A stretch of 64,000 bases of DNA, taken from positions 9,373,501 through 9,437,500 of the forward strand of contig OW285196.1 of NCBI GenBank assembly GCA_935421135.1. Reading direction: 5' to 3'. Below, piece by piece: positions 12,401-62,681 of the stretch; positions within the stretch are counted from its first letter, which is position 1; the number at the start of each line of letters is the position of its first letter. The notes under the pieces were generated by a model, which was given only the letters and a program-made list of their open reading frames with translations, was not told the DNA's origin and did not search any database. Source of the DNA: Bugulina stolonifera (taxonomy: Eukaryota > Bryozoa > Gymnolaemata > Cheilostomatida > Bugulidae). The translations under genes were made by a program, and so were the position numbers.

Positions 12401-15400
12401 TCAATACACATATGTTTATTAGGCTCTCCTGAAGTGAGGCTCACTAATTCTAAGCTCCAGCCATTACAAACAGAAATATCAGCACTTGGTGAGAAGGAGT
12501 ACATATGCACCTACACCGTCAATGATCCAGGTATGACAAGCTGTGACATGTGTGTGATAAGTTTATACTGGGAACTTGTATAATTTACTGAGTCCTAAGA
12601 TTACCTTTGCATTGTGTCTTGAGTGAATGTTTGTTATTTACATTCGTTTGACTGCTCATCTTTCTGGATGGTTTGGTTTACTACTGCATTTCATAAATAG
12701 ATTTAGAGATAAAAATCACTTGTCTGAATTTCTAGATATGATTTTTTATCACCTCTAGTCACATGTTGGATAAACAATCTGTTTTGTCACAGTAAGAGGT
12801 AACAGTATCAAGTTCTGTAATTTCAATTTCATCCATTTTAACATAAAATTCTCTCAGGGTGTAGCATTTCTTTTACAGGAATATATATGCTGCATGTTAG
12901 CTGGAATGGAAATAATCTTCAGGGATCCCCTTTCTCCGTCACAGCTCTGGACAAGACTTCAACTGTTTCCTCCCGAGGGTCAGGTAAATGTCAAATGGCA
13001 ATTGTTAAAGATGTGCTGACAGTTATCAATGGAACACTGGCACTTTATACCAATACATGTATGTTAGCAGTACTAAATACTCGTATGTGTGCATATTGAC
13101 CATCATTGTCATAATGTTTATAGAAGGACCAGATAAGATATCAGTTAGAGGTGATGGAATCCTTCCTGGAATACTAGCTAACTTCAACGGTACTTTCTAC
13201 ATTGACACTGAAGATGCAGGTAGAGGGGAGTGTGTGGTGAAGGTGCAGGGACCTAAAGGTATATACATGCACTCCTTAGATATTACTAGTTCAATGGTAT
13301 GTTATACAACAATCACATTCTCCAGGTTAGCCGCTTCTATTGGAGTTGCCTGACCTTCAACTTTGAGTAGACAACTCCCCAAGACTATACAAATAGTACA
13401 GTATATTGCCACTGACCTTCGATGACTAGTTACTATAATATTCTGTTCTAATCATGTTTCCATGCATGTACGTCTGCTGGTAGTTCCATCCATGTACGTC
13501 TGCTGGTAGTTCCATGCATGTACGTCTGCTGGTAGTTCCATGCATGTACGTCTGCTGGTAGTTCCATGCATGTACGTCTGCTGGTAGTTCCATGCATGTA
13601 CGTCTGCTGGTAGTTCCATGCATGTACGTCTGCTGGTAGTTCCATGCATGTACATCTGCTGGTAGTTCCATGCATGTACGTCTGCTGGTAGTTCCATGCA
13701 TGTACGTCTGCTGGTAGTTCCATACATGTACGTCTGCTGGTAGTTCCATGCATGTACGTCTGCTGGTAGTTCCGTGCATGTACGTCTGCTGGTAGTTCTA
13801 TGCATGTACGTTTGCTGGTAGTTCCATGCATGTACGTCTGCTGGTAGTTCCGTGCATGTACGTCTGCTGGTAGTTCTATGCATGTACGTCTGCTGGTAGT
13901 TCCATGCATGTACGTCTGCTGACAGCTCTATTCTGGTTCGTTATCTGCAGGAGATGTGAAGACAACTTCCTCACTGCAAGGGGCTAAGAAAAGGCTGATA
14001 CAGTGTAACTATAACCCTACGGAGATTGGCCTCTATGTGGTTAGAATCAGGTGGTCTGGACAGGATGTGGCCGGTAGTCCAATCAAAGTACACATATTTG
14101 ATACTTACGATGAGCTGGAGAGGTAAGAGTTTTAGAAAATGTGTCGGTGGGAGTTGTCCACCTCATTTACGGAAAATCTAGATCTTGAAATGCAGTCTGG
14201 TAGCAAGTGTTCCAGTCTACCTTACATATTTATTATCTCTAGAAATTATTTTATCTGCCCTTTTGTCATGAAAATACTTAACTATGGTACACTTTATTTA
14301 TTTCTATTTGCCCAACGGTGATTCAAAAGCACTTCCATTACTTGATGTCACAGTGATAGCTTATGTATACACACATTGTTAGTCTGTAATATTTGCATGT
14401 AATTAGATAACTGTAGACTGTAAGACTCTACTGTTGACTATTAAGCTGCATTTACACTACACCAACTCCGACACCAACTCCGTCTTTTCTGCCCAACTCC
14501 GGCAAAGTTGGTGTAGTGTAAACACAAAAGTCGGTGTCGGTGTTGGAGATCCCTATTGTCGGAGACGGAGTTGGAGCAACCCAACAGTGCTGGGTTACTC
14601 CGACAAGTCGGAGGGTATTGACCAATCAGAACTCAGTGTTTTAATCATAGCTAGCATCTGTTTTGCAAATCTAGGATTGGCTCTGGATTATTGATGATAA
14701 ACCTAAAGCTTTATTATGGGAAAAACCTTTCCTAGCACTAGCTATTCAAAGTGATACTTACAAAACTTTAATTTGAAGTACATGCATAATTTCCAATAGC
14801 TAAGGTTATAACTACCAGCCATTTCACAAATCTAGGATTAGCTGTTGATCATACATGTAGATGATAAATCCAAAGCTTTTTGCTTATTTGCTATAACCCC
14901 AGTACATGTACACTTGTACAAGCATGCTTGCTGATGTGGGTACTGGCAATTAATTGATTATGTGGTCAACAACTAGTTGGTATAGTGTAAACACATAGTT
15001 GGGAGTCGGAGTCGGTGTTGGTGTTGGAGGTTGGAGTTGGTGACGGAGTTGGTGTTGGAGTTGGTGTAGTGTAAACGCACCTTTAGTCTCGACTTTTCTC
15101 ACTCAGCTGGAATGGAAGCAATCATCAGTAGTCTCCTCCTTTCTTTCACGACTCTGGATAAACCATCAACTGTGTTACCTGAATCCTGTGTTGTATTCTA
15201 GGTTTAAGAATTCTGGTGAGATATCAATGTACATGCCTGATGATGATGAATCCATACACTCCAGCATTCTTCCAACATACCTAGTAAACAGTAGTAAGAG
15301 AGCTAAGTCTGTACCTTATAACAGAGGGGCTCGTCCGGTTCAGCCCGTTGCCCAGAGGTCATATACGGCTGGTCCTAGGGCTCTTCCCCAGCCCGCTCCC

Positions 15401-16697: not shown

Positions 16698-19600
16698 CTA
16701 ACTGTCACGATTTCTAACTGGATAGACCTGTAGGACCACAGGCTTGCTGTCTTTATTAACCATGTAGCAGTAGTTCATATACTGGGTGAATTCTGACCTC
16801 TCCCGAGCTATGCCCGACACGTCTGTGAACAATGTAATTAGCTCTACTGACTGATAAGCTGAACCAATCTCCCTTTTTGTTCTGCACTTCTGAGGAGACA
16901 ACTCACTGGTTGAAGTTGCTGTAGAGCTACCAATGTGAGACTTACTAGTGTTAGTTACATGACCACTGGGTAAGGCGACTGTCACACAAGGTGGTACATC
17001 CTCATCAACATCTGAGCTGTCGTCACACCCGATGTTGATGTCGGACATAAAGCTTGATAAGCTTTCATCTCTGTGAAGCATAGATGCGGTCTTTGTGAGG
17101 TCATCTAGATACGAGCAGTATGTCTCAAACATCAATCCTCTCTGTGCTCTAAAACATGGTTGCATGTTCTATACAATTTGCCACATACATGTAGCTCCTA
17201 TTTGATTAAGTGTAGGTCTACATGTATGCCTATTTAAGCCTATTTAATCCAAGTTGTCTGCAGTCTTCTTCTGTACATATCGCTACTCAGATTTTGTTAG
17301 ACTTACGGACCAATTGTACTGTCGTTGGATATTTTCTACATACCCATCTATGATTACGTGTCATTATTAGGTAGCCAAATGGATAGCCAAATGACATCTT
17401 TACAATTAGACTTGAATGTAAGCTGTAACATCTGAATACACTATTCACTATAGCCAACATCTGTTAGAATGGACAACTAGTTTCAAAATTTTTGTAACAT
17501 TCTACATGTACAGATCGATCAGCAGTCAACGTCATGTCAATAATTGACAATAAGGTTTTTGACTATGAGGCACAAGAAATGTGCTACAGTGTATACATGT
17601 ACATATAGTCGTAAGTAATTACTTGCTATCTGGAAGGGTCGAAAAGCAGATATAAGTGTCCACTTGCAATGTGAGAGGACGTAGAGGGTGTATTGACCAT
17701 TCCCTCTCCTTTTCACCAACATCCAGCTCTCTCCTGATTAGATTAAATGACGTAGACTCGTACAGAGTTGGTAGTACTGTACATTCCCATGCTTGTCTAG
17801 TTCTGTTACTGCGAGGTTGACCAAGTTTCCCACGACAGAAAGAGAGAAATAATATCTACAATGAGCAATTACTTTAGCGGAACATTTCAATTTAGATCAC
17901 AATCCTCAGCATACATAGTAATGTTATCAGAAGTGTACAGCGTAACAACCCTGATACTTGGGAACATAACTACCTGCCGTGTATTGGCTACAACACATAG
18001 GGATGTTACTATTTTGGCTAACTTGCCTTTGGTATTCCCTTCAGCATGTGGTGATCCAGCTTATTTACTAAATCCTGTACAGAACAGACAGACTCTTTAT
18101 CGTTCCCACAGATGTTCCCATTCATATCTCCATGAGCCATCAGAGCGAGTGCTAATACTTCGCCATGGTCAGATGATTCAGCAAACTCACCAGTTACTTG
18201 CAGCATTTCATTGGCAGTTAGATCATATTTTACCAAAACCTTAAACAGAGGATTGAGAGTGTGAATATTATATTAAACATATCATACTGCATTTATTATT
18301 GTCTCAGGTCTCTATTGTTCGTGTTTGTATTCAATGATAGAGACAGCAACTGATAGAAAGAACAAAACTACGGTAGTGATAATGGAATGATCGTCAATAC
18401 AATAATAGGTAGGTCTTGGATAAGATATCACGCTATTTTTAGCCTAATAAATAATACAAGAGAAAATAATAAAGTAGCACAGATAATAATGGAGAGTATG
18501 TCTACATTGTACTATGTAATAACGCAGTTTTCTGGAAATTATCAATTTAGTTTCACCTGGAATTGAAGTTGATACTCGAGTAGTTTCTTGGCATTCCTCA
18601 ACTCTTTCTCCCATCCATCTCTGTTGCGACAGTTACAGATAATCAACGCCTTCTTCTCTGTGACAGTATGAGCTGCAGACCTGGGCCTTGCTTTAGCAGA
18701 GCTACACCTTTTACCCAGTGTAGAATCAACTCTTACATGCACCACACCTCCACTATCTCTAAGGTCATCTACCAAGTTATCTATACTTGTGAGCACCTGC
18801 TTCTGACTCTCTCTGAAATGACACAAACTTGCATAGCTCAGGGGAAACAGCAATAGTCAGCAATTGGTTTACTCTAACAACACTATAATATCATAGCAAT
18901 GTTGATAATGCTCTGCCCGCATAATCTTAACAAAAGAAATTGTGTGAATATTTTGATTTCATCACCATAGGTTGCTATACTGAAATAACGATGGAGCATC
19001 ATTGGCGAAGCAGGAAATATTGACTGAGCACTTTGTACTCCAAAGCAAATGCGGTTCACAATAACTGATGGAATATCATAATCTATACCTCAGCCCTTTA
19101 CTGAGCAGCCTCTGAGTTTGGTATTACCTGTAGCCATGCCACTGAGCAAAAGTAGCTGTGACGATCATGAAGTCAGGTCCAGGTGGTATGACATATGTCT
19201 GGTTACCATTCTCGTGTTGCATTTCCTCAATTACAATGACCTACTAACAAGTTAAGTGAACAATGACTAAACATTCATCTAGACAGTTTGAAGACTTCAA
19301 TCATGGAAATATCAACATCATTATATAACTTAAAAATAATTCCTCTGGCGAATAAAATTGGAACATCCAATGAGGGGCTAACAGTAATCTTGGAAATTTC
19401 TGTTCTAGAAAGCCTCTAAGTAACAGTTCTTGGAGAAATCCATTCCTGGTTCTTAAAACTATTTTTACTATTTTAAACATATTATCCATTTTATTATCAT
19501 AAGAAACCAATGTCTATGCTGCAGGCACCAACCTTTGGCTTCCCATGGTATTCTGCAATGTCCATACTGTTTGCAGTCTTCTGGAGGTTTATTCTGTTCT

Positions 19601-21964
19601 CTGGGATTTTGAGCTGATCTGAGGTGACATGCAGCCATAACATAGGCTTGACTTGAGAGGCAGCACTGACAGTATCAAATTCACTTTCACCAACTGAAGC
19701 TTCTCCCTGAAGTTGTGATTAGGAAAACTATGTTAATAGTTCTATCAGTGAGTGTAATTTTATATCGGCATATTACTGTACAGTAATAAAAAACATGTAC
19801 CGGGCCAGAGTGACTGAAACTATTTTACATGTATTATAATATTGCTAGCTATTAAATAGATGACGTTGTTTTAAAATATCGATGCCAAGAATTTAAAAAT
19901 ATAGAATTTAAATTTGAGTGGTCATCCTAACTTAGATCTGCTGCAAATTATGATGTAACTGATAACGTTAACATATTATTATACATACTATGTTTTACAA
20001 ACATTGTTTTAAACAAAATAGATAGCAACATATTAGGACCGACTCACTATTAGCTCATCTTTGTCACATACAGATATGTGTCAAAGATAGATTATACAGA
20101 GTTTACAGAACACAGAGAATGGCTCATATCAGTGAGCATAATCCATGTAACTGTTGTTATGTACCATTCTCCAAATGTGCCAGCATTCCGGGCACGGTTG
20201 GAGCCAACTGGCCAAACTCAGCTGAAACTCTGAATGATTTTGCCAATCCTAACTACCATGTAGTCATTATTAGGCTAGTTTTAGATTATTTTAAAGCCTG
20301 ACATCATATTAATATAAGCAGACATTCATACTCACTTGATACAACAAAAGACGAGGCTGTGTAGAAGTTAAGACCATCGCTGCAAGTCTATAACTACGAA
20401 AATAGTAGGATTCTGTTAGGGAGTACTCATTCAGTGCATACTTTAGCACTCTCCTCATGTCTTCGTTAGCTTGTACAAAGTCCAACGGAAATATTAATTC
20501 CGGGGTTTTTGACCCATATCGTTTTCCAAAAGTTTGAAATCTTGTTATATATTGGTGCTTGCTTTTGCCCATACGTTCACAAAGAATATTTTGAAGGAAG
20601 AAACGTTCATAGAATTTTGGTCTGTGGACAATGGTTCTGCAGTTAGTACCCCTCTTGTTTACTTGACTGACCAGCAGCTTTCTCACAGACAGTGGAATCT
20701 TCATTATGAGGGTGGCAAATAGCTGTGTTGAGAATCGCGCAGCTATATAATTGAGGAGGGTGTTATTATATCTATCTGGTAGTATTAGCTGATCAATATC
20801 AACGTATGTTATATATTCAGCTAGTATATCATATAACGCATTGATGTATGGGGAAATTGCTGCCAGGTGGAAGATTGTTTGATCAAATGCATTCCTATCT
20901 GCCAGGATCCTTTTCATTACATCGGGTTCACCGAGATAGGCTGCTTCCAGGTATTCCAAGCAGTATTCCATAGTTTGGCAATTGCCTTCCTTCGCAGCTG
21001 TCATTGCCACGGAGTTTCCAGAATGATCTTCTGCTAAAAGGTACCCCACGCTGTCCTTCACTGATTCAACTAATACTTCTGCAATTTGGGCATTAACGGC
21101 ACAATGAAGGGCTGTTCTACCATCTTCTGAACAGCTCTGTAGAAGCTCTTCTTTAAGGGCTGAGAAACTACACAAATATTGTACAACATATAGTCTACCA
21201 AATAGAGCAGAAGTGTGAAGTACTGTATAGCCACTCATATCTTTCTGTAAAATGTAAGCAAATCTTTCCTCTACTGGTATACGAGCAATAATTGACTGGG
21301 CCAGCTGTTCATTTTTAGCACCATGTAAAACTGTTCCATGAAATATGTCTTTCTCTGTCAGCAAATAATCTCCTGACTTGTTGATCAAATATTCTGCCAA
21401 CTCCGTGTTTCCATGTTTTACTTCTTCAATGTAGTGTGCCACTGACTGTCCATTTGAGTTACGGATGGAAAGCAGCTCTTGTTGCTTTTCTGTAGACTCG
21501 ATATAGTCTATGAGTAAAGCAGCCACATGCTTGTTTTTTGCACGAAGTAGAAGAGTGAATCCATGTACATCTTGTGAAAATAACAATTTTTCTGGGAACC
21601 TCAGCTTCATCAAGTATTTGATCACATCTGTTCTGCCCAACAAGGTTGATGCATTTAGCAAAGCTTCGACTTTTTCCAAGTACACCCACAAAGATCTCCC
21701 TACTTCTCCAGTGTTATTATCTTCTAGCATTGATTGTTTTTCGGGATTAATCGTACTATGATCATCTTGATTGAAGTGAAATAAATCAATCAGTCTTTCA
21801 GCAAAGCTTTGGTTGAATGCAGCTAAGCTCGGTTCTTCACTGATTGGTGCAGCTTTCAGAAGAATTTGAGAAAGTGTGGAGATGTCATTTCCTTTTACTG
21901 CTCTATGCAGAGAACATTGCCTAAGCTGTTCACTTTCTCTTACTAGCATGTACTCACTCTCCAT
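16698..21964 (-). CDS. Ankyrin-repeat protein with tandem pseudo-caspase and caspase domains
   Basis: Seven exons encode 1022 residues: 21964-20336, 19706-19533, 19240-19128, 18812-18557, 18239-18027, 17855-17623, 17148-16698 (TAG). Every junction keeps frame. Residues 1-543 are ankyrin-like repeats (for example GYTVLHTSALFGRLYVVQYL near 243, DGRTALHCAVNAQIAEVL near 281). Residues about 690-1022 form a caspase: R703 in NRDG, catalytic His760 in LMAHGD, catalytic Cys802 in FLSFCRG (usual QACRG), then the small-subunit strand YICFSTLPDS with R876. Residues about 510-675 look like a second, degenerate caspase domain: a possible His569, GKPK at 598-601, VIVIEEM where M608 replaces the cysteine, and DFMIVTATF with R639. 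Such an arrangement recalls caspase-8/c-FLIP, where an inactive domain tunes an active one; here both would be in one chain. Intron 5 has a GC donor (AAAG|GCAAGT). A role in cell death or immune signalling is inferred. Confidence 0.88.
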
Positions 21965-28227: not shown

Positions 28228-29090
28228 TTACTTTTTCCTTATGTCAGCTACACGGCGGGTGGGGTCGTAACAGATGCACTCATGTCCATCACACTTCCCT
28301 CTAGTGTTCTTATCCTCTTGCATACATAAATGGTTGCAGATGATATTGGAAATTGGACAGTTTGGTAGCCCAGAAACATTGGCAGCCACACCTTGAAATA
28401 ACAAATAATCAGATAATAAAAATGGCGTCTCACGGCCTGTCTTTATGATCTATATAATCTGAGTTGTGATCATAATAAAAATTTTCCCTCTCTCAAAGAA
28501 GAATATTTAGTAATTTATTGTTTTAGATTCCTAAGTAGAATATTGATAAACATACGTATACATGTTAGTAGTTATCAACCCTTATCTTAATGAAGTTAGA
28601 CATTATTTTCTTGTAAGACTATTACTTACACATGATGACGAAGGCAGACAGTAGAACAGTGGAATACTTCATTATTCAGGTGCAGGTTTTAGCAGAAGTA
28701 TCAGGTTGAGATTGTTATCTGCAAATAGTGATGAATGCGTTCATGGAATGAAGTAATATTTGATGTACAAGTATTATGTAGCTAACATTTATACATGTAA
28801 TTATGTTGTTATACAGCATACATATGTTTGTAATACAGTACAGTAATATTTGTTATACAATACATTGTATATACATGTATATGTACATGTAATGTATTAT
28901 ACAACACATTGTATATACATGTATATGCACATGTAATATATTATACTTTTAGCCTGCACCCATCATACTGCACCCAGACTGTACACAGACTGAATTAGTA
29001 ATTTCAGACTATTTAAACTTCCCGCTCACCTGAATATTGCTTCCCAGAGGTTTGAGATGTTTCTAGACTGTGTAAATCTTGTTGTTGTGG
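28228..29090 (-). CDS. CSαβ defensin-like secreted peptide (copy 1)
   Basis: Coding exons are 28672-28630 (43 bases) and 28391-28228. The protein has 68 residues. Residues 1-22 form a signal peptide (MKYSTVLLSAFVIM start, ending VSG). The mature part has six cysteines spaced C-x6-C-x3-C-x10-C-x4-C-x1-C, with GKC and CIC. This is the cysteine-stabilised alpha-beta motif of invertebrate, plant and fungal defensins, which disrupt microbial membranes or bind lipid II. The peptide ends in a basic tail (RVADIRKK). A 5' untranslated exon, about 29090-29030, is inferred from a TATA box and a CAG|GTGAGC donor, with its acceptor just before 28718. The first coding intron interrupts the signal peptide in phase 1, exactly as in the paralogue at 48.6 kb. 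The same fold occurs in ion-channel peptides, so antimicrobial action is inferred from the pattern only. Confidence 0.85.
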
Positions 29091-31792: not shown

Positions 31793-34141
31793 ATGGCTCT
31801 AAGTAGAAAAAGAAAAGTATGGTTAGTTGGAGCTTGTATTTTCTTCACGACTGTATCATGTTATTCAATATATTATACCTCCACTTCACCATTGTCTAAC
31901 ACAGGTATGTTATCTAGTAAAATACAGGGTGAATCACCAAAATGTAAAAAATATTTTTCAGGATATTACATTGTATGTTATTGAATAATGACTGCACAAA
32001 TTAATGGCATGGTCAAAATTCTCCTGTACTTTTGTACCAAATTGCATAGGTATTTTAAATAGTAGAATGTATTATTATATTTTTGCCATTTAGCTTTAGG
32101 TGATCTACCAGGCATAATTTGATTATATTGATGGAATGAACCCTGACTTTCTATCTACATAATTATATATTCTATCCTACTACATTGTGAGACCAACTTT
32201 CATACATTAGCAGAATGAAGTCTACTAAAGAGTTTGGGACATAAAAGATGACAACTCCCTAGAAATGTTAACAACGTTTAGAAGAGGCCAAATAGGCTAT
32301 TTACTGTAGCAAATGAAGGAGTTCAGCTTCCACACAATGAGTCACGCCTGAAGGCTAAACCTGTGTTCAGATATTAAAAGCAGTCGCATATGAACTAGTG
32401 CAGTTTCCGAAAATGCCTAATATGTGTCATGAGTCCAACTAGCAATTGTTTCTCTAAAATGCCTACAAAACTTGGATATTTTCACCACTTTTTCAAAGAC
32501 CATCGGCACTATTAAAACTTTCAAAGTATCAATCTACATGCACATGTAAATGATACTCATAAGTACATTAGAGCAATGGAGAGAGATATAACCTGGCAAG
32601 TTTTGCTTCCTAACTGTGGTATAGGTTTCTGACTGTTAACTATACAGTAGTCTTTGTCCCCTCTTGTGTAACGCCAAACATGGTACATGTATACTGAATC
32701 TACTCATCCTAGGCTAGTCCCAAGGTTCGGTTTGTGAGCTATAACCACTCTGTAGGCCTATTGGGTTTCACCTAAGTAACGTTGTATGTTTAACATGATG
32801 CTGCAAGTCCCAGAATCCAGCATCAAGTAAGTGCTTGTTATTTCTCTTGAAGAGGCATTACATATCTAACACTAGTCATGACTTCTTTATTATTTAGGAT
32901 GGGATCATTTGCTATGGGTAAAGAATGCAACAACAGATTTGTTATACTCTAATGGCAACATATCAACGTATATCCATAACAGAAAATCTCTTCTGGATAG
33001 CATAGATAAGTGGAGAACACAGAGGCTTTCTCCAAATGCTGCAAAAGCTGAGTCGATATCTACGTCGTCTAGTAGTAGTATTGTAACACCACAGGTTTCT
33101 GCAGACCGTCCAGAGTTGTCGCTTATACGCAGGAATACACCTTTAAATCATGTCGCATTTATTAAGACCCACAAAAGTGCCAGCTCTACTATACAAAACA
33201 TACTAATGAGGTATGGATTGAACCACAATCTCACTTTTGTTCTACCGGTGTCCGGTGCGAAAACGGGATGGCCAGATCCGTTTGACCCTGAAAAGCATAT
33301 GCGACCAATCAAACAAAATAAAGCAGACATTCTGTGCTTTCACTCAGTTTTTTCTCCAAAGATAGAAGAAGTCATGCCAAATGATACATTTTACCTGTCG
33401 ATACTCAGAGAGCCATTTTCCCGGCTGAAATCGGCATATACCTACTACAACTTCTATAAATGCTCAAAGTTGAGTCTCCGTGAAATTATTAAACAATTAC
33501 CTAAAAACATCAAACCGTGTGAAAAGCCGGTTTTTAATGCATTATTCTATGACTTTGGTTTCCCTGTAGAAACGTCTTCCGAATCTACCAGAGAGATCAA
33601 TGATTATATCGACATTCTGGACAAGAAGTTTGGTCTCGTTATGATAGTTGAATACTTTGATGAATCTTTAATTATTATGAGAGATTTGTTAGGTTGGAGT
33701 ATGGAGGATGTTTTGTCATTTGCAAGTAATTTTCGGCAGAACAATACTGACTCTAAAAGTGACGCCAAATCATTGCGAGGAGTTGACATACAGGATAATA
33801 AAGAAGGCGGGACTCTGATGTACCAGAAATCAAAAGCAGATGTCATTTTATATTCGCACTTTAAAAGAAAACTAGAAAGGATTATAAAAGCTAATAAATC
33901 ATATATTGAAATGGAGAAAGATAAACTACAGAAGCTTAGGTTGGAATGGATGGGATACTGTATACAGGCCTCAGTGCCAAATAAATATATTACGGATCCA
34001 CGATTCAAGCCTTGGCATGGATACAACTCTTATGGATACATTCTTACTGAGGAAGGCATGCTAAACCAAACTTGTGTTGCTCTAGCCATGTCTGAAGTAG
34101 CATTTCACAAACAGCTTGCCAACTTGCAGCCTGCTTTCTGA
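31793..34141 (+). CDS. GAL3ST: Galactose-3-O-sulfotransferase family protein
   Basis: Two exons, 31793-31904 and 32898-34141 (TGA), encode 451 residues. The N-terminus (MALSRKRK followed by WLVGACIFFTTVSCYSIYY) is a type II signal anchor, as expected for a Golgi enzyme. The donor-binding 5'-phosphosulfate loop is seen in HVAFIKTHKSASSTIQNIL, followed by LNHNLTFVLP. The 3'-phosphate motif is SILREPFSRLKSAYTYY. Both are hallmarks of the galactosylceramide/galactose-3-O-sulfotransferase family, which transfers sulfate from PAPS to the 3-hydroxyl of galactose on glycolipids or glycans. Length matches the family. Which glycan is used cannot be told. AATAAA lies at 34155-34160, just after the stop. 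Confidence 0.92.
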
Positions 34142-34404: not shown

Positions 34405-36272
34405 CAATATTCAACACTAATAATGCAGCTGTGCGCAGTTATACCTGTAACTATGAACTGCAAAAGAAGAGGATAGTAATATGAACTGGGTGTTAAGTAT
34501 CTTAGCATATTATATTCTGTGGGTAAACTACTGTGTACACATAGGATTAGCTGAGATATTTTATTTAAGGAGTTTGCAGATCACAGCACATGACTAAGTG
34601 CTTGTGAGCGTAAATTGCACCAGCCCGTAGTACTACATGTACATGTATAATAATAATCAACTCTCTTGGTGAACTTATACTTGACGTAACAGTTGACGTA
34701 ACAGTTAACGTCATGATAATTTAGTGTCCCACTAACTGCATAACTTCTGCATCTCTGAAATCAAATTTGAATGTGTAATTACCTCCCTTGTTACTAGAAC
34801 TGTAAAGACCCCAAATAATATACACATACATGTACATGCATAGCTATTCTATTCCTTGGGATCTAATAAATTGCATGAATTGTCATTACATCAGTCGGCC
34901 CAAAATATTGTACATTATGCTGGGTGAAAGTTAAACGCTCCTCGTCCACATTCTACACAAGCAGATAGTTTAGAAGCCTCTTGTCTACTCATTTTCAACT
35001 AAAGAAATTGATGCACCCAATGCAAAGAAACATAAATGGTGGAAAGTCTTGGGTATAGCAAGAAATTGTAAACATCTAAACAGTAGTTGTCTACTCAATG
35101 AGTGGTTGCTAATTTGCTGAGCAAGGGAAGACAAATTTAAAGTAAATAATTTGTTAATCCAAGGGAAGTTGACCCACTTATGTGGAAAAGTTTTTTTGTG
35201 GGAGGGCAACTCCCATTTACTGTAAGATATCGATTTTGTATTGCTCTTAGAGCTATCCTTAGCCAATAAGCTTATTGGCTAAGGATAGCTCTTATTGGCT
35301 ATCTGCTTTATTCTATATACTTTATGAATGCAGGTCTCCAAAATAGTAGGAAGACATCTTTAACGTATTGCAAACAATTCAATTTTCTAACCTCAATAAA
35401 ATGATGGAATAAAATATTATTTTGATAATAAGTAGTTGTAGTCACACACAGAGGAGACACAACTCCTAATTATTATGACTGTGCCCGTTTAAACAGACAT
35501 CATTAGGAGTTGCACTCTCACTGCCCATAGTTAGAGTATTGAACAATATTACTAAATAAAATGAAGTTGGTTTCTATAGTTGTCCAGGTACAGTTCTATA
35601 TTGGTCATAAAGTACAGATACAGACTATACAATTGCACAGTCGGCTAGAACCACTCCCGGTATACAGTACATGTCATTGTAAGCCAAGTCAGTACATTGG
35701 AGTAGTAAATATTGATATTCTGATACTTGAGGCAGTTTGCTGGTAGATGTTATTATCATGGTTCATAACATTTAGCATTCTAGTAGAAGCAGTGACTCCC
35801 TATTAGCAGAGGCAAGAAAAACAAGTTCTAAAATTAATCATATTTTTATACAGTGAAAAAAACTAAAACACCTTTCTTTATTAAACATGTACTTTACTTT
35901 TTTATAACCAATTATTCTACATATAGATACATTGAATTATAATTGGGAGTTGAGCACAATACATTGAAAGTGCAAGTAAATAAATTCAATCAGTAGTCAT
36001 AACTATTACACTATCTACCTTAGACATTTGGCAACTACTATTCGTTGTTACTGGGCATGTACAATGTAAGTATAAACTGGATATTCTATCTATCTACATG
36101 CCAATCAATATTCTGATGGTATTAGAAAATATTCCATAGTGTGAGCCTATAGTTATTCCATGAATTCTTTTAATATTTTCCTCACTCATCATGTACATCT
36201 ACATTACTATACATTCTCTTTTTCCTGACTAGAAACCTTAGCTAATAGGTCAGCTAATCTATATAGCAATAA
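34405..36272. other. Intergenic region with hairpins
   Basis: No gene is supported. It contains a 44-base perfect palindrome at 35249-35292 and a related hairpin (GAGACACAACTCCTAAT...ATTAGGAGTTGCACTCTC) at about 35450-35515. Confidence 0.6.
35249..35292. repeat. 44-base perfect palindrome
   Basis: The half-site AGAGCTATCCTTAGCCAATAAG is followed directly by its exact reverse complement with no spacer, centred on AAGCTT between 35270 and 35271. A further CTTATTGGCTA copy follows immediately. It could be a minimal MITE or fused element ends. Confidence 0.95.
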
Positions 36273-37275
36273 CTATCTACAATGTATCTACAATGTATCT
36301 ACAATGTATCTACAATGTATCTACAATGTATCTACAATGTATCTACAGTGTATCTACAATGTATCTACAATGTATCTACAATGTACCTACAATGTACCTA
36401 CAATGTATCTACAATGTACCTACAATGTATCTACAATGTATCTACAATGTATCTACAGTGTACCTACAATTTATCTACAATGTATCAACAATGTATCTAC
36501 AATGTACCTACAATGTACCTACAATGTATCTACAATGTATCTACAATGTATCTACAATGTATCTACAATGTATCTACAATGTACCTACAATGTATCTACA
36601 ATGTACCTACAATGTATCTACAATGTATCTACAATGTATCTACAGTGTACCTACAATTTATCTACAATGTATCAACAATGTATCTACAATGTACCTACAA
36701 TGTACCTACAATGTATCTACAATGTATCTACAATGTATCTACAATGTATCTACAATGTACCTACAATGTATCTACAATGTATCTACAATGTACCTACAAT
36801 GTATCTACAATGTATCTACAATGTACCTACAATGTATCTACAATGTATCTACAATGTACCTACAATGTATCTACAATGTATCTGCAATGTACCTACAATG
36901 TATCTACAATGTATCTACAATGTATCTACATGTATCTACAATGTATCTACAATGTACCTACAATGTACCTACAATGTACCTACAATGTATCTACAATGTA
37001 TCTACAATGTACCTACAATGTATCTACAATGTATCTACAATGTATCTACAATGTATCTACAATGTATCTACAATGTACCTACAATGTATCTACAATGTAT
37101 CTACAGTGTACCTACAATGTATCTACAATGTATCTACAATGTATCTACAATGTATCTACAATGTATCTACAATGTATCTACAATGTACCTACAATGTATC
37201 TACAATGTACCTACAATGTATCTACAATGTACCTACAATGTACCTACAATGTATCTACAATGTATCTACAATGTA
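36273..37275. repeat. 11-bp minisatellite, about 91 copies
   Basis: Tandem TCTACAATGTA with a T/C variant at the first position (CCTACAATGTA) and rare others. Because 11 is not a multiple of three and the unit has no stop in any plus frame, all three plus frames stay open for over 1 kb with an 11-residue periodic product. These are not genes. A distinctive variant block (CTACAGTGTACCTACAATTT) occurs near 36451 and again exactly 187 bases (17 units) later, showing internal duplication. Confidence 0.98.
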
Positions 37276-39608
37276 TATCTATATTATATTGATTTCTGCA
37301 AGTCAATCCTCACAGCTACTTATCCCATCAGGGTATAAGTTAATTATTATAAGATTACTTATGAATGGTATATTAGGCTATGCCCTATATATTACATTAT
37401 AAAGCATTGCTAGTATTATATTATTTGCTTTCCATTTGTGCTCATCCAAGATGTATCATTAAATACATGTAGAATCTATATACTCTCTCTAGTCCTTTCT
37501 TATTAATCCATTATACTAATATCAAATAAGTTTACCTTCACAACATATCAATAGATTACAAAAATGTTGGAATAGTTTTTATTCTTTTCGTACAACATGA
37601 GACTGGTAAGAATTGGTAGCATGGAAATCATTATATGTGTATATGAATAAAGATATTATTTAAATAGTTACATATAACTAAAAATATATGTAAACAACTA
37701 TATAACATGATATAGTGTCACTCTACCTATATAATATATGCATGTATACAATGCACATGTATGTACAAATGTAGTACATAGTTACATACATGTAAGCAAT
37801 TTACAATGAAAAATGCATATATAGTTATAATACTGACAGCAATGTAAATATACGTAGAAGTCACATGACTAACAAAAGAGAGGTTCTTCCTGCACTCTGA
37901 ACTCTACTAAACATCAACCGTTAGGAGTGGCAACACATTCACATGTAAGTAAATGGTATGCAATAAACAGAATACAGGTGGATTCATGGGATAGCAAAAA
38001 GTGGGACATGGCCCTGAAGGCCTCCGCCCTATCAATAACAATTAGTACCTGAATGTGAAAAGAGCCTGGGAATGTGTATGTTATCGGTACATTGTAGGCA
38101 TAGTTCCACTAATGACCCTCGATGTGATACAATTTGCTTATGGGGATCCGGTGTTCTGGTTCCAAGGACAATTATCTCTAAGAAATGTAATGCTATATCT
38201 TGAGGCATATCACTGATGTAATGTAATGCTATATCTTGAGGCATATCACTGATATAAGATAACATTTTGAAGGCAACCTAAGGACAATCTTCTGTAGACA
38301 TTTCATAAAATTTGATCGAAGGTAGCGCTAAGAAGGTACTCAATCTAGGATTTGAACGCTGATTGGCTGAAAGCCGAAATGCAAGTTACATGGACATGTG
38401 TTTGTTTACAATAGCTGTTTCAATGTAAGCAATGTAATTAGTTTCGGCGAATGCAATTTTAATAGTGAATACTTTCTATTAATAATTTCTGACAAGCATT
38501 ATTATTGAATTGAAGATAAAACAAAAAAAGCTAATATGATTTGCCTTTTAGAGTGTTATTGCTGTATCCAAATGTATGATACTACCCCTACTGCAAAATC
38601 CGTACCCATGTATTCCGAGATTTCTTATAAATTCATTTCCGGAAAGTTTTTTAGGTGACTGATGTGTTAGTCTTACTCAATTTATTATTCAAATTTGCAA
38701 TATACAGCATAATTAATGCTTCAAAGCTGTTAACCTACAACATAATATGATGCATAACACACTACATGTGTTGTGTGTATCATTATTAATGCATTCACTC
38801 AATATTTCCTGACTTTAATATAATAAATAACATAATAATATACTGTACAATGCATGCATGCAACAGACCTGGTGAAACTATTACAAAAATGTGCAAACTA
38901 ATACATGTACCTACCGGTAGAATCGTAAGTTGTAATAACTCAGGGGTGGGCCAAGGCCGGATATACATGTATAACAAGGCCGGGATATATTAACAAATTA
39001 ATAATCTTCATTGTTTATATTTTGAGCAGAAAACAAGCTCTCTGTATATAAAAAGGTGTGATTTATTTTGTACCCCCTTAAACTTTCAAAGTTACAGCAT
39101 TATATGCGGGCTTATTGGAATTCATGTTCACAGCACTATTTACCCAATCATACAGTAGATGCTACATAACTATAATTACATACAAGAAAAACCTGACTAC
39201 TAATTATATGTAGCATGCAGCCTATGCAGCATACTGGTACAATTTGTTATGGGTGTGAGAGTAGGAAGCAGCGGCAGCAAAGAGAATATGACCATCTGTG
39301 ATAGTATCCTCCTTCATTATAGCCATTCATCTGCTCTGACTGCTGTTATTGTACAGACAGGACTAAATAGTGGACAAGTACCCTTCTATATTTCTCACAA
39401 CTCAACCATTTATCACCCTAGATAGTTAAGAACCTAAGCTAATATTGCATCAATAATGTGCAATGTTATAATAGGCTAGCTGCTAGGCTGGTACAGCTAT
39501 ATGCATGCAGCAAGTAGCTACATGCCAGCAGGTGTAAGCTATTGATCTGTAGGGGTGCAGCCACTCCACTACTGCAGGCATATCTATTTGCTGACTGCTA
39601 GCTGCAGG
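37276..39608. other. Intergenic region upstream of RGM-like gene
   Basis: No gene is supported. There is a two-copy direct repeat of a 36-base unit at 38184-38255 (core TGCTATATCTTGAGGCATAT) and several TACATGTA-type palindromes. The promoter of the RGM-like gene must lie at the right end, but no TATA box is obvious. Confidence 0.5.
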
Positions 39609-42600: not shown

Positions 42601-45600
42601 TCAGTTTACATATTTGGGTTTGTTTAAATCCACAGGGAAGGTAGTAGGTTAAGAAGATAGAGCTGTTTTTACAAATTCAAGCACATTTTTCTTGCTGCTG
42701 CTCCAGAGTAGGGTGCTCGACGGCAAACGGGGATAAATTTGTTGCAATATTGTGTTATTGTTAGCTAAAAATCAACCACATTTCAGTGGGCAGCTGGGAG
42801 ATGTAAAAAGAGAAGCACAACCTAAGCCTCCAGTCATATTAACCTTAGACCTACACATTTATGACTTTGTAGCACACATTCAAATCACCATCACTCTCAT
42901 ACAGTAATATTGTAATACGCAACACAAGTAATTGAAGGTGTGTTTACAGAACGAGTTTAATATACTGTACTTTGTACATGTACATGTAGGCCTACAATAT
43001 TGTATTTCACACGAGGATTTTATGTTAAGACACATTTTATTCCCAGCATTTACTAAAGATCTTGGTTCCATAACTAAGGGAGCTTTGGAATTCTTTGGTT
43101 TGGTAAGAGATCCACAGAGTCCATACAAGTTTAGCATCTCAAATGATTCTATAATTGTAAACCCGGATGCCATGGAAGAGTGGAACAGTAAGATGGAGAA
43201 TGATTGCGGTCTCTACGTGTATGTTGGCGCAATGAGCAATGAGTACTCTAAGTTTTTCATGCTGAACAGCACAGTTGGGACTGGAGTGGTTATAAAGAAC
43301 TCGAGAGGGTGAGTAAATCAATTGTTGCTGCCATATGCAATGCAACTATATAAATTATAATATACATGTAATATTATTATACAATGGGTAGATATTGAAC
43401 TGCATGTATGATAATCTGCCATCTTTTTCAGCACAGCTGTCGTGATATTTACAATAGACCAACTTTATGAAAATATTTTTATCACGTCAAAACATTTCAT
43501 AGAACATCTACATGCACCTGTCCTTTCCAACTGTCCTATTCTCCTTAAATAAACATGGTGGAAGACATTGACCATATAGTGCTGAAAGCCTGAAATCAGA
43601 AAACCTTACATACATGTATATTGTAGCTGCTTGCAATACATAAATGCTGCAAACATGACTGCAATCGATTTCTGATGCATGTGTCAGGTATTTGATAGAA
43701 TGTAAAATGTGTATAAACTGCTTGATGTGTTTTAGAGTGCTCAAAGGCTATGTGCAATGTATGATAGAGAGTATGAGATCAGTTGCACCAGAGCTTGTTA
43801 CAGAGAGCTTCCTGGAGAAATACAGTCTGCTCCTGGAGAGATATGGTCTATCTGGTCTCTCCACCAAGGTATCTATCCATAACATATTTAAGTGCTATTG
43901 TGATAATTGTATACACCTGTGTCTTGTCTACATATTTCGATGGAAATACAGATGGATTGCGGGATATATGTTACTGAATTCTCATACCAATTTAGAGCGA
44001 AATGCACATGATAATGTATTGTTGTGTACCAGTACTCAATAAACACAGGGTACATATCACAATTGGCATTATCAACTTACATGTAGGATGTAAATGAAAT
44101 ATATCACACATACATATTGTATATGTATAATCTTGCCTATACGAGTACCATGGAAATGTTCTTAATTAATAGAATCCTAGCTAACTGCTCTTCCCTACCC
44201 TTTGAATGATCTAGGTCGCAAATAATAGATCAAAACAGCTAGCGATTTGCCCTTTTGGTTGTCCGAAGCAAACCATTCATAGCCCTTCACTATTCTTAAA
44301 TTTATCGCAAGACAATTCAGTATTTGGTTCGACTTAGGCTGGTAATTTTCTAAAATGTGTGGCGAAGCAGGCCGGAAACTGCCGAGCCAAATTGTCTGGG
44401 ATTTGAAACTGGGCTCATACCATTTATTGGGTGTTGGCTAGATAAACTTTATCCTTGTAGAAGTTCGTTTGGTGAATGCCCCTTTCCTATTATCTGCTGA
44501 CATTATATATTTTCAGTTTGTAGTTAAAAAGGCGCCTCGAGAAACTCTCTCTGTGTTTGGCGACCCACATCTGACAGTTTATAAACGCTCCGACCCAGTT
44601 ACTTGTTCTGCTCTGGGATGGCAGACATATTTATTCAATGAGTTTGTTAACTTCTATGGCTTTGCTGAGCCTGTAGCTGAAGGAGCGGAGGCTTCCTATC
44701 TTACCAAGGTGACTACTATTTACTTGTCGCATGCAATAGATTCTCTAGTGAATGTGCTTTGAAAACTAGTCAATACTGTAGGCTAACTCTCAAAATTCAA
44801 GCAAGATATCTAATTGCTGTCCAGTAGGAACACAAGCAAAGGGGCCCATACACTATTGAATATGTTGTAATGTAGAAGGTCTTTTAGGAAGGAAAAAACG
44901 GAAAGTAAAACCGATGAGAGGACAACTTCACAACATACTCAATAGCCTGTGTGCCCATGATTAGAAGTTGGTTTATAGCCAAGTTTGTGCAGGCGAAAGT
45001 TTAGGAGATTGTCTATAATGTTTAGTAACAAAGATTATGGCATATGCACATGCAGATCTTATTATGGTGTGGTGATGGAGATATTAGTGTCATTCCGTAA
45101 ACCTGTGGGGTTGTTCCTGCGGCTATAAAAATATTTGCAATAAGACGATGGTGGATGATGTGTCTATTACTTTAGATTAGGATTGACTTTGTGAAGAAAT
45201 CAGGAAATGTAAGCTATTTATCTGAAGGGGGAAGCAAGCCGAACAACAAACTTATGCTGCATGACTTGATAGGAGAAAATGCCGGAGACAAAGGTGCCGA
45301 GACTGGTAGGTGATTACTATGTGTTTCAATATGAATGTTATAGCCTGTATGGTCTGTGTACGCCTACAAACAGGCTTTTAGTTGGTTACCTCAATATTAG
45401 TTACATTTTTGTTCTGACATTCAGCGCACAACCGTCACAGTTTAAAATAGAAATTCACAGGAAAACAGGGAACTAAGATTTAAGGCTTCTATTGTTATGG
45501 CAAACATGTACCTTACATTATAACATTATGAATCATGTACTAACTTTTAGATGTATAATAATTACTGTGCAACTTCTAGATTCTGTAAAGATAACAGAAC

Positions 45601-51589: not shown

Positions 51590-62681
<11,092 letters not shown>

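Follow-up and report, generated by a model that had tools for sequence, protein, structure and literature searches.

Positions 9,373,501 to 9,437,500 of contig OW285196.1 from the bryozoan Bugulina stolonifera, a stretch of 64,000 nucleotides called the window here, contain on the minus strand a gene whose predicted product combines ankyrin repeats with caspase-type sequence. We lean towards the interpretation that this gene belongs to a multigene family in which a single chain carries an ankyrin array with a cap and a tail, a shrunken caspase-derived domain (segment 1), and a complete caspase-type domain (domain 2), and that the pseudo-caspase gates an ankyrin-triggered protease. The order of the parts recurs in the genome and in Bugula neritina. 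Domain 2 has the His/Cys catalytic dyad, and the aligned catalytic Cys is lost from segment 1.

Independent re-reading of the minus strand gave a 1022-codon open frame from 21964 to 16698, terminated by a stop codon and divided into seven exons. It reproduces the seven-exon, in-frame model of the first-pass annotation, which had been made from the sequence. The splice sites are of the usual kind; the donor of exon 5 is of the GC type (AAG followed by GCAAGT). A purpose-written spliced aligner fed with amino acid (aa) residues 441-1022 returned identical junctions. The residues M608, R703, H760, C802, and R876 were verified at these positions of the 1022-aa model. In this protein, the Pfam scan found ankyrin repeats and a single Peptidase_C14 domain (aa 692-879), where the first-pass annotation had proposed to look for two. 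The same scan was negative for DED, CARD, and death prodomains. No death-fold domain was seen either in the 10 scanned of 18 minus-strand frames (at least 55 aa, 22-32 kb) that lie upstream of exon 1. The model is confirmed at the level of prediction, and the 25 further family clusters in the genome and the collinear protein in Bugula neritina indicate that it is more than a chance assembly.

The genome searched comprises 235 Mb in 27 contigs. The region from aa 485 to the end of the window protein matches at least 77 exon-sized places, which form at least 26 clusters including the window, among the best 80 of 110 candidates scored. Twenty loci were fetched, covering 19 of the 25 non-window clusters, as L029 and L030 both belong to the cluster at C9:5.49-5.50 Mb. 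Of the 19 paralogs obtained in this way, 16 yielded the ankyrin exon, segment 1, and domain 2 together, which makes 17 of 20 genes with the window gene. The exceptions are L043, whose ankyrin exon lies outside the fetched locus, and L035 and L036, which are incomplete. The C-terminal stretch of exon 7 shows up to 58% identity at other family loci. On this sequence evidence, the window gene is one of a multigene family and not a lone oddity. Genome-wide, 139 exon-sized matches to Peptidase_C14 were observed. The abundance of caspases had at first pointed to a sponge, an origin that was abandoned once Bugula neritina proteins matched the family; of five cathepsin pieces inspected for a sponge marker, four gave a motif, in each case of the ordinary cathepsin kind.

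The 96-aa tail of the paralog L046 matches 22 places in the genome, including the window, each within an open frame of 157-3053 aa. A family caspase-exon match is present within 16 kb downstream at 20 of the 22 places. The remaining two are C8:2177117, where the caspase-exon match is at 28 kb, and C7:4114308, which has none.

Relatives of the family were sought among 5.8 billion proteins. The query with aa 480-900 of the window protein found no match among 3500 candidates. Queries with a paralog and then with an alignment retrieved proteins of Bugula neritina from the same set, and thus the blank result reflects the low sensitivity of the first query. The two successful searches scored ~8000 candidates sharing most words, and the named matches among those scored are all from Bugula neritina; with this number of candidates, the family is not shown to be absent from other organisms. 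The protein P0001 is collinear with aa 316-1017 of the window protein (303 bits, 31% identity), so the same order, which the first-pass annotation proposed to seek in related genomes, is present in another species. The cap, tail, segment 1, and domain 2 are joined in P0001 and P0002, and likewise in P0006 with a shortened segment 1. P0005 begins within segment 1, P0007 skips it, and P0008 stops within it. The metagenomic ankyrin frame P0009 (1013 aa) is 95% identical to P0001 where the two overlap. P0001, P0002, and P0005-P0008 are of the same family as the window gene, and most of the B. neritina family entries are partial predictions. They are named hypothetical protein, caspase p20 domain-containing, or CASP9, and their names contain no reference to an ankyrin/tandem-caspase composition. 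In the domain-2 tree of 23 rows, which omits L029, L030, and L036 and samples B. neritina only via the protein searches, five B. neritina rows constitute one clade (100/100) within the Bugulina genes. The tree suggests separate expansions of the family in Bugulina and in B. neritina.

It is very improbable that the exon model wrongly fuses an ankyrin gene with a neighbouring caspase gene. Some B. neritina predictions do hold only some of the parts (P0005, P0007, and P0008), as they might if the parts were separate genes. However, 20 of the 22 places have the tail followed by caspase exons within 16 kb, P0001, P0002, and, with its shortened segment 1, P0006 join the parts in another species, and exon 1 is stop-free up to a good donor with fitting exon phases.

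For domain 2, the first-pass annotation had described a second caspase domain with His760 and Cys802. This description stands. The dyad is intact in the window gene, and aa 689-1022 alone score 66.5 bits against Peptidase_C14 (cut-off 21.4). The position of Cys802 is occupied by Cys in all 19 readable genes. At the position of His760, 17 of the 19 readable genes have His. Of the other two, L036 carries Tyr there, and L048 seems to be without the stretch. In this count L048 is scored as lost, the His aligned there being misplaced, and L035, whose exon 5 was not found, is omitted. L036 and L048 are possibly dead copies.

Caspases are characterized by the QACxG pentapeptide and the SWR substrate strand. 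Neither motif is found in domain 2 of the window protein, which has SFCRG and STLPDSKAQRG in their place. The domain-2 alignment has 15 rows (L029, L030, L035, L036, L047, and L048 were dropped as incomplete or badly modelled), eight of which make up the alignment A2. Every one of the eight A2 rows has Ser in place of the Gln of QACRG, and the alignment shows no SWR stretch in domain 2. From the Cys to the STLPDS stretch, no invariant column of A2 is an Asp; activation by cleavage at a fixed linker Asp is thus not indicated.

R703 and R876, which the first-pass annotation listed alongside His760 and Cys802 and which we take, from caspase-3, to be arginines of the substrate pocket, are characteristic of only a part of the family. 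Both are kept in eight genes: the window gene, L029 with L030, L031, L032, L033, L034, L037, and L040. Both are absent in the other 10 genes readable at both places (L038, L039, and L041-L048), five of which (L039, L043, L044, L047, and L048) have an Arg one place before 876. L035 and L036 are readable at one of the two places only. One or two events on the domain-2 tree can explain the difference.

These deviations could mean that the protein is a scaffold or a decoy, in which domain 2 is a docking or regulatory domain that does not cut after Asp or does not cut at all. The Ser in all eight A2 rows, the missing SWR stretch, the loss of both arginines in the 10 genes outside the group of the window gene (five with the displaced Arg), and the changes at the His position in L036 and L048 are consistent with this alternative. 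Against it, the Cys persists in 19 of 19 and the His in 17 of 19 readable genes, a joint retention that is unexpected for a dead domain, and the group of the window gene retains both arginines in eight genes. We consider the alternative unlikely, and take domain 2 as a putative protease below.

Segment 1 had been read in the first-pass annotation as a caspase-like segment with Met608 at the place of the catalytic Cys. The placement of Met608 is borne out: in a gapless profile alignment of 25 columns with domain 2, M608 lies beneath C802. The segment-1 alignment contains 17 rows (L030, L035, L036, and L043 were dropped as incomplete or badly modelled), and the profile alignment A1 consists of 12 of them. 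When the segment 1 profile is compared with eight other caspase-type sequences of the same genome, the score is 35.75, with a maximum of 18.8 in 300 column shuffles; compared with domain 2 it is 26.3, with a maximum of 20.9 in 300 shuffles. The eight reference sequences are rough models from 3-4 kb loci; several are partial, and L002 and L004 are near-copies. Two of them, L001 and L005, are themselves without the catalytic Cys. Given that both are outside the family, further pseudo-caspases may be present in the genome.

The aligned catalytic Cys is absent from segment 1 in 16 of 17 members, including the window gene with its Met608. Five of the 16 have a Cys one position earlier. The exception is L029 (5600-5697), which retains VVVIQAC at the catalytic place.

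The introns of segment 1 (at aa 601 and ~639) mirror those of domain 2 (at aa 795 and 873) in place and phase. The junction at aa 601, after GKPK, is in phase 0 in 16 of the 20 modelled loci, in another phase in one, and not placed in three. The junction at ~aa 639 is in phase 2 in 17 of 20, in another phase in one, and not placed in two. In domain 2, the junctions at aa 795 and aa 873 are in phase 0 and phase 2, respectively, in 18 of 20 loci each, with two not placed in each case.

Several observations weigh against the descent of segment 1 from a caspase. Pfam has no match for aa 485-676 at E-values up to 1, none of 12 segment-1 members is matched by Peptidase_C14, and the PDB-sequence profile search with segment 1 returned no caspase and nothing relevant. 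The HHalign probability is 71% against the other caspases and only 7-12% against domain 2. When the four GKPK columns are masked, the score of segment 1 falls to 16.9, which is under the best shuffle. For the half corresponding to p10, 33 of 300 shuffles are as good, which is not significant, although its best match to the caspase C-terminus is in register. Segment 1 is also far smaller than a caspase domain, and hence a c-FLIP-like partner surface is hypothetical. Finally, the introns are shared by few of the eight reference caspases. Just two of them (L006 and L007) have a phase-0 intron after GKPK. In four others (L002, L003, L004, and L008) the intron is in phase 1 and lies about five residues further downstream, and L001 and L005 are without an intron there. 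L003, L006, L007, and L008 have a phase-1 intron where the ankyrin-caspase family has the phase-2 intron.

Alternatively, the family could have the composition given above with an unrelated alpha/beta linker domain in the place of segment 1, whose GKPK and adjoining strand would be caspase-like by chance or convergence. The blank Pfam and PDB profile searches, the dependence of the profile signal on GKPK, and the non-significant result for the p10-like half fit such a linker. The score against the other caspases, in contrast, is reached by none of the 300 shuffles, and the phase-0 intron lies exactly after GKPK, as in L006, L007, and domain 2. The order of elements also fits by eye (helix, GKPK strand, PPGPDY strand, helix, and final STL strand), and L029 retains VVVIQAC. 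An unrelated linker is improbable in our judgement. Segment 1 probably descends from a caspase.

Selection on segment 1 was examined by the ratio of nonsynonymous to synonymous substitution rates (dN/dS). Among the 12 pairs that gave a ratio (14 are listed), 11 show a dN/dS of 0.19-0.38 for the core of segment 1, and the remaining pair gives 0.61. Purifying selection on segment 1 is thereby shown in the pairs tested, which all belong to subfamily B, that is, without the subfamily of the window gene. The dS values exceed 0.8 in 11 of the 12 pairs and are mostly near or above 1. As the pairs come only from the other subfamily and dS is high, constraint on segment 1 of the window gene itself is only implied by extension.

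The ankyrin nature of the N-terminal part, assigned to aa 1-543 in the first-pass annotation, agrees with Pfam: Ank_2 scores 59.6 bits in the window protein (cut-off 27.3), and Ank_3, Ank, and Ank_4 are also above their cut-offs. The repeats, however, end at about aa 440, and aa 440-543 correspond to the separate conserved tail. The ankyrin cap is common to the window gene, its paralogs, and B. neritina P0001. With the repeat profile, 73-aa double-repeat units were counted as three in the window gene, 17 in L044, and 19 in L032. Exon 1 of L032 (C9:7467500-7477400) lies within a 3053-codon open frame with ankyrin repeats. The units of L044 show a mean mutual identity of 72% and a maximum of 97%, against 38% between genes, which indicates that this array has grown recently. 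The units of the window gene are mutually just 31% alike, and so there is no sign of recent growth in this copy. Ankyrin arrays thus differ greatly among the genes of the family, both in length and in sequence.

Animal initiator caspases reach their trigger, as a rule, through death-fold prodomains. c-FLIP and procaspase-8 are separate polypeptides with DED prodomains, whereas the scan of the window protein detected neither DED nor CARD nor death domains. The likeness to this pair, also discussed in PMC4715348, is that a pseudo-caspase partner regulates a caspase.

The closest known chain is caspase-X of Acropora. In this double caspase, a single chain holds an inactive caspase domain and, after it, an active one, and the two were modelled in the manner of c-FLIP with procaspase-8. 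The second domain alone cut the survival of HeLa cells more than the whole protein (PMC4715348). Removal of the inactive domain thus leads to more killing, and the first domain restrains the second. The window protein is like caspase-X in that one chain has a first domain without catalytic residues ahead of a caspase domain of the active type; the domain order fits if segment 1 is indeed caspase-derived. The first domain of caspase-X is recognisable as CASc, whereas segment 1 of the window protein is shrunken and invisible to Pfam. Unlike caspase-X, the window protein has an ankyrin array ahead of segment 1 and belongs to a multigene family. The word ankyrin is absent from PMC4715348.

Expansions of TRADD-N proteins with ankyrin ends are reported for marine invertebrates in PMC8195603. 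They are similar in being lineage-specific expansions of cell-death proteins with ankyrin repeats as possible sensors, and they differ in their fixed part, which consists of TRADD-N and death-fold domains, not caspases. The passages of PMC8195603 and PMC7836458 retrieved by search words describe no ankyrin-caspase chain, and such an animal protein is not described in the titles and abstract openings listed by searches of open-access literature, with at most 20 papers per search. The first-pass annotation knew of no described architecture of this kind. For the ankyrin arm this agrees with the literature searched, but the tandem of an inactive and an active caspase domain in one chain is already known from Acropora caspase-X. 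Within the literature searched, what is new is the ankyrin arm, the marked shrinkage of the first domain, and the existence of a gene family.

The combination of sensor, pseudo-caspase, and protease suggested in the first-pass annotation is partly supported, since ankyrin repeats and a caspase domain with its dyad are in one predicted chain; segment 1 is not recognised as a caspase by Pfam or PDB-sequence profiles. For a gated protease, the following steps are probable. The ankyrin array, variable in length and sequence, would be the sensor or the scaffold. Segment 1 would pair with domain 2 inside the chain, by analogy with c-FLIP/procaspase-8 and the modelled caspase-X, and would keep the protease inactive or in a licensed state. 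The trigger would be binding of a ligand to the array, or clustering of the array by that ligand, and the released protease would start cell death or an immune signal. We infer the gate and trigger steps from these analogies. From the turnover of the arrays and the size of the family, we also infer a role in immunity or colony allorecognition.

A wider interpretation is possible but doubtful. The bugulid proteins may be self-contained receptor-proteases with a fast-changing ankyrin sensor, a pseudo-caspase gate, and a caspase executioner, working with no death-fold adaptor and, through separate expansion in each species, forming a germline-diversified repertoire that serves immunity or colony self/non-self recognition, with the arginine-less subfamily perhaps cutting non-Asp sites. 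If the gated-protease reading is true, a chain with its own sensor array and pseudo-caspase gate would dispense with death-fold adaptors. An inactive/active caspase pair beyond corals would suggest a repeated or very old origin of such regulation. In any case, for a colonial animal the family is a concrete candidate as an immune or allorecognition repertoire. The natural variants, namely the Cys in segment 1 of L029 and the two gene groups differing at two arginines, make the mechanism testable.

Table 1. Parts of the ankyrin-caspase gene, in positions of the window. The exon borders are 21964-20336, 19706-19533, 19240-19128, 18812-18557, 18239-18027, 17855-17623, and 17148-16698.
Feature	Positions	Strand	Basis
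Exon 1 part, aa 1-439: ankyrin repeats and C-terminal ankyrin cap	20648..21964	-	Pfam, repeat profile, P0001 alignment
Exon 1 rest, aa 440-543: conserved tail RVLKYALNEYSL, donor GTGAGT	20336..20647	-	Tail matches in genome, alignment
Exon 2, aa 544-601: caspase-like segment 1, HGKPK at end	19533..19706	-	Profile comparison, phase-0 junction
Exon 3, aa 602-639: VIVIEEM (Met608 at the catalytic-Cys place) and PPGPDFMIVTATF strand	19128..19240	-	Profile alignment
Exon 4 first part, aa 640-676: end of segment 1, VHVRVDSTLGKRCS	18704..18812	-	Alignment
Exon 4 rest, aa 677-724: linker and start of domain 2 (KALIICN, R703)	18557..18703	-	Peptidase_C14 from aa 692
Exon 5, aa 725-795: domain 2 with His760, GC-AG donor	18027..18239	-	Pfam, residue check
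Exon 6, aa 796-873: Cys802 (LSFCRG), intersubunit stretch, CFSTLPDS	17623..17855	-	Pfam, alignment
Exon 7, aa 874-1022 and stop: R876, acidic/Ser-rich insert, conserved C-terminal VELITLFTDVSGI...YMNYCYMVNKDSKPVVLQVYP	16698..17148	-	Family alignment

Other features are present in the window. A long open frame for galactose-3-O-sulfotransferase is at 32882-34141 on the plus strand (PF06990, 183 bits), and an HSP70 family gene is represented by two exon-sized pieces on the minus strand, 56661-56981 and 59316-59684 (65 and 98.5 bits). A weak filamin repeat at 13009-13350 on the plus strand (20.7 bits, cut-off 26.9) is perhaps part of a filamin-like gene. A piece similar to the C-terminal domain of repulsive guidance molecule lies at 44442-44759 on the plus strand, with 26.5 bits, slightly under the cut-off of 27. 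The tandem repeats at 13448-13940 (minus strand) and 36229-37402 (plus strand) contain overlapping long frames, which are probably repeat artefacts and not genes. A short cysteine-rich frame at 28231-28449 on the minus strand shows a sub-threshold resemblance to scorpion toxin/defensin (20.9 bits, cut-off 27).

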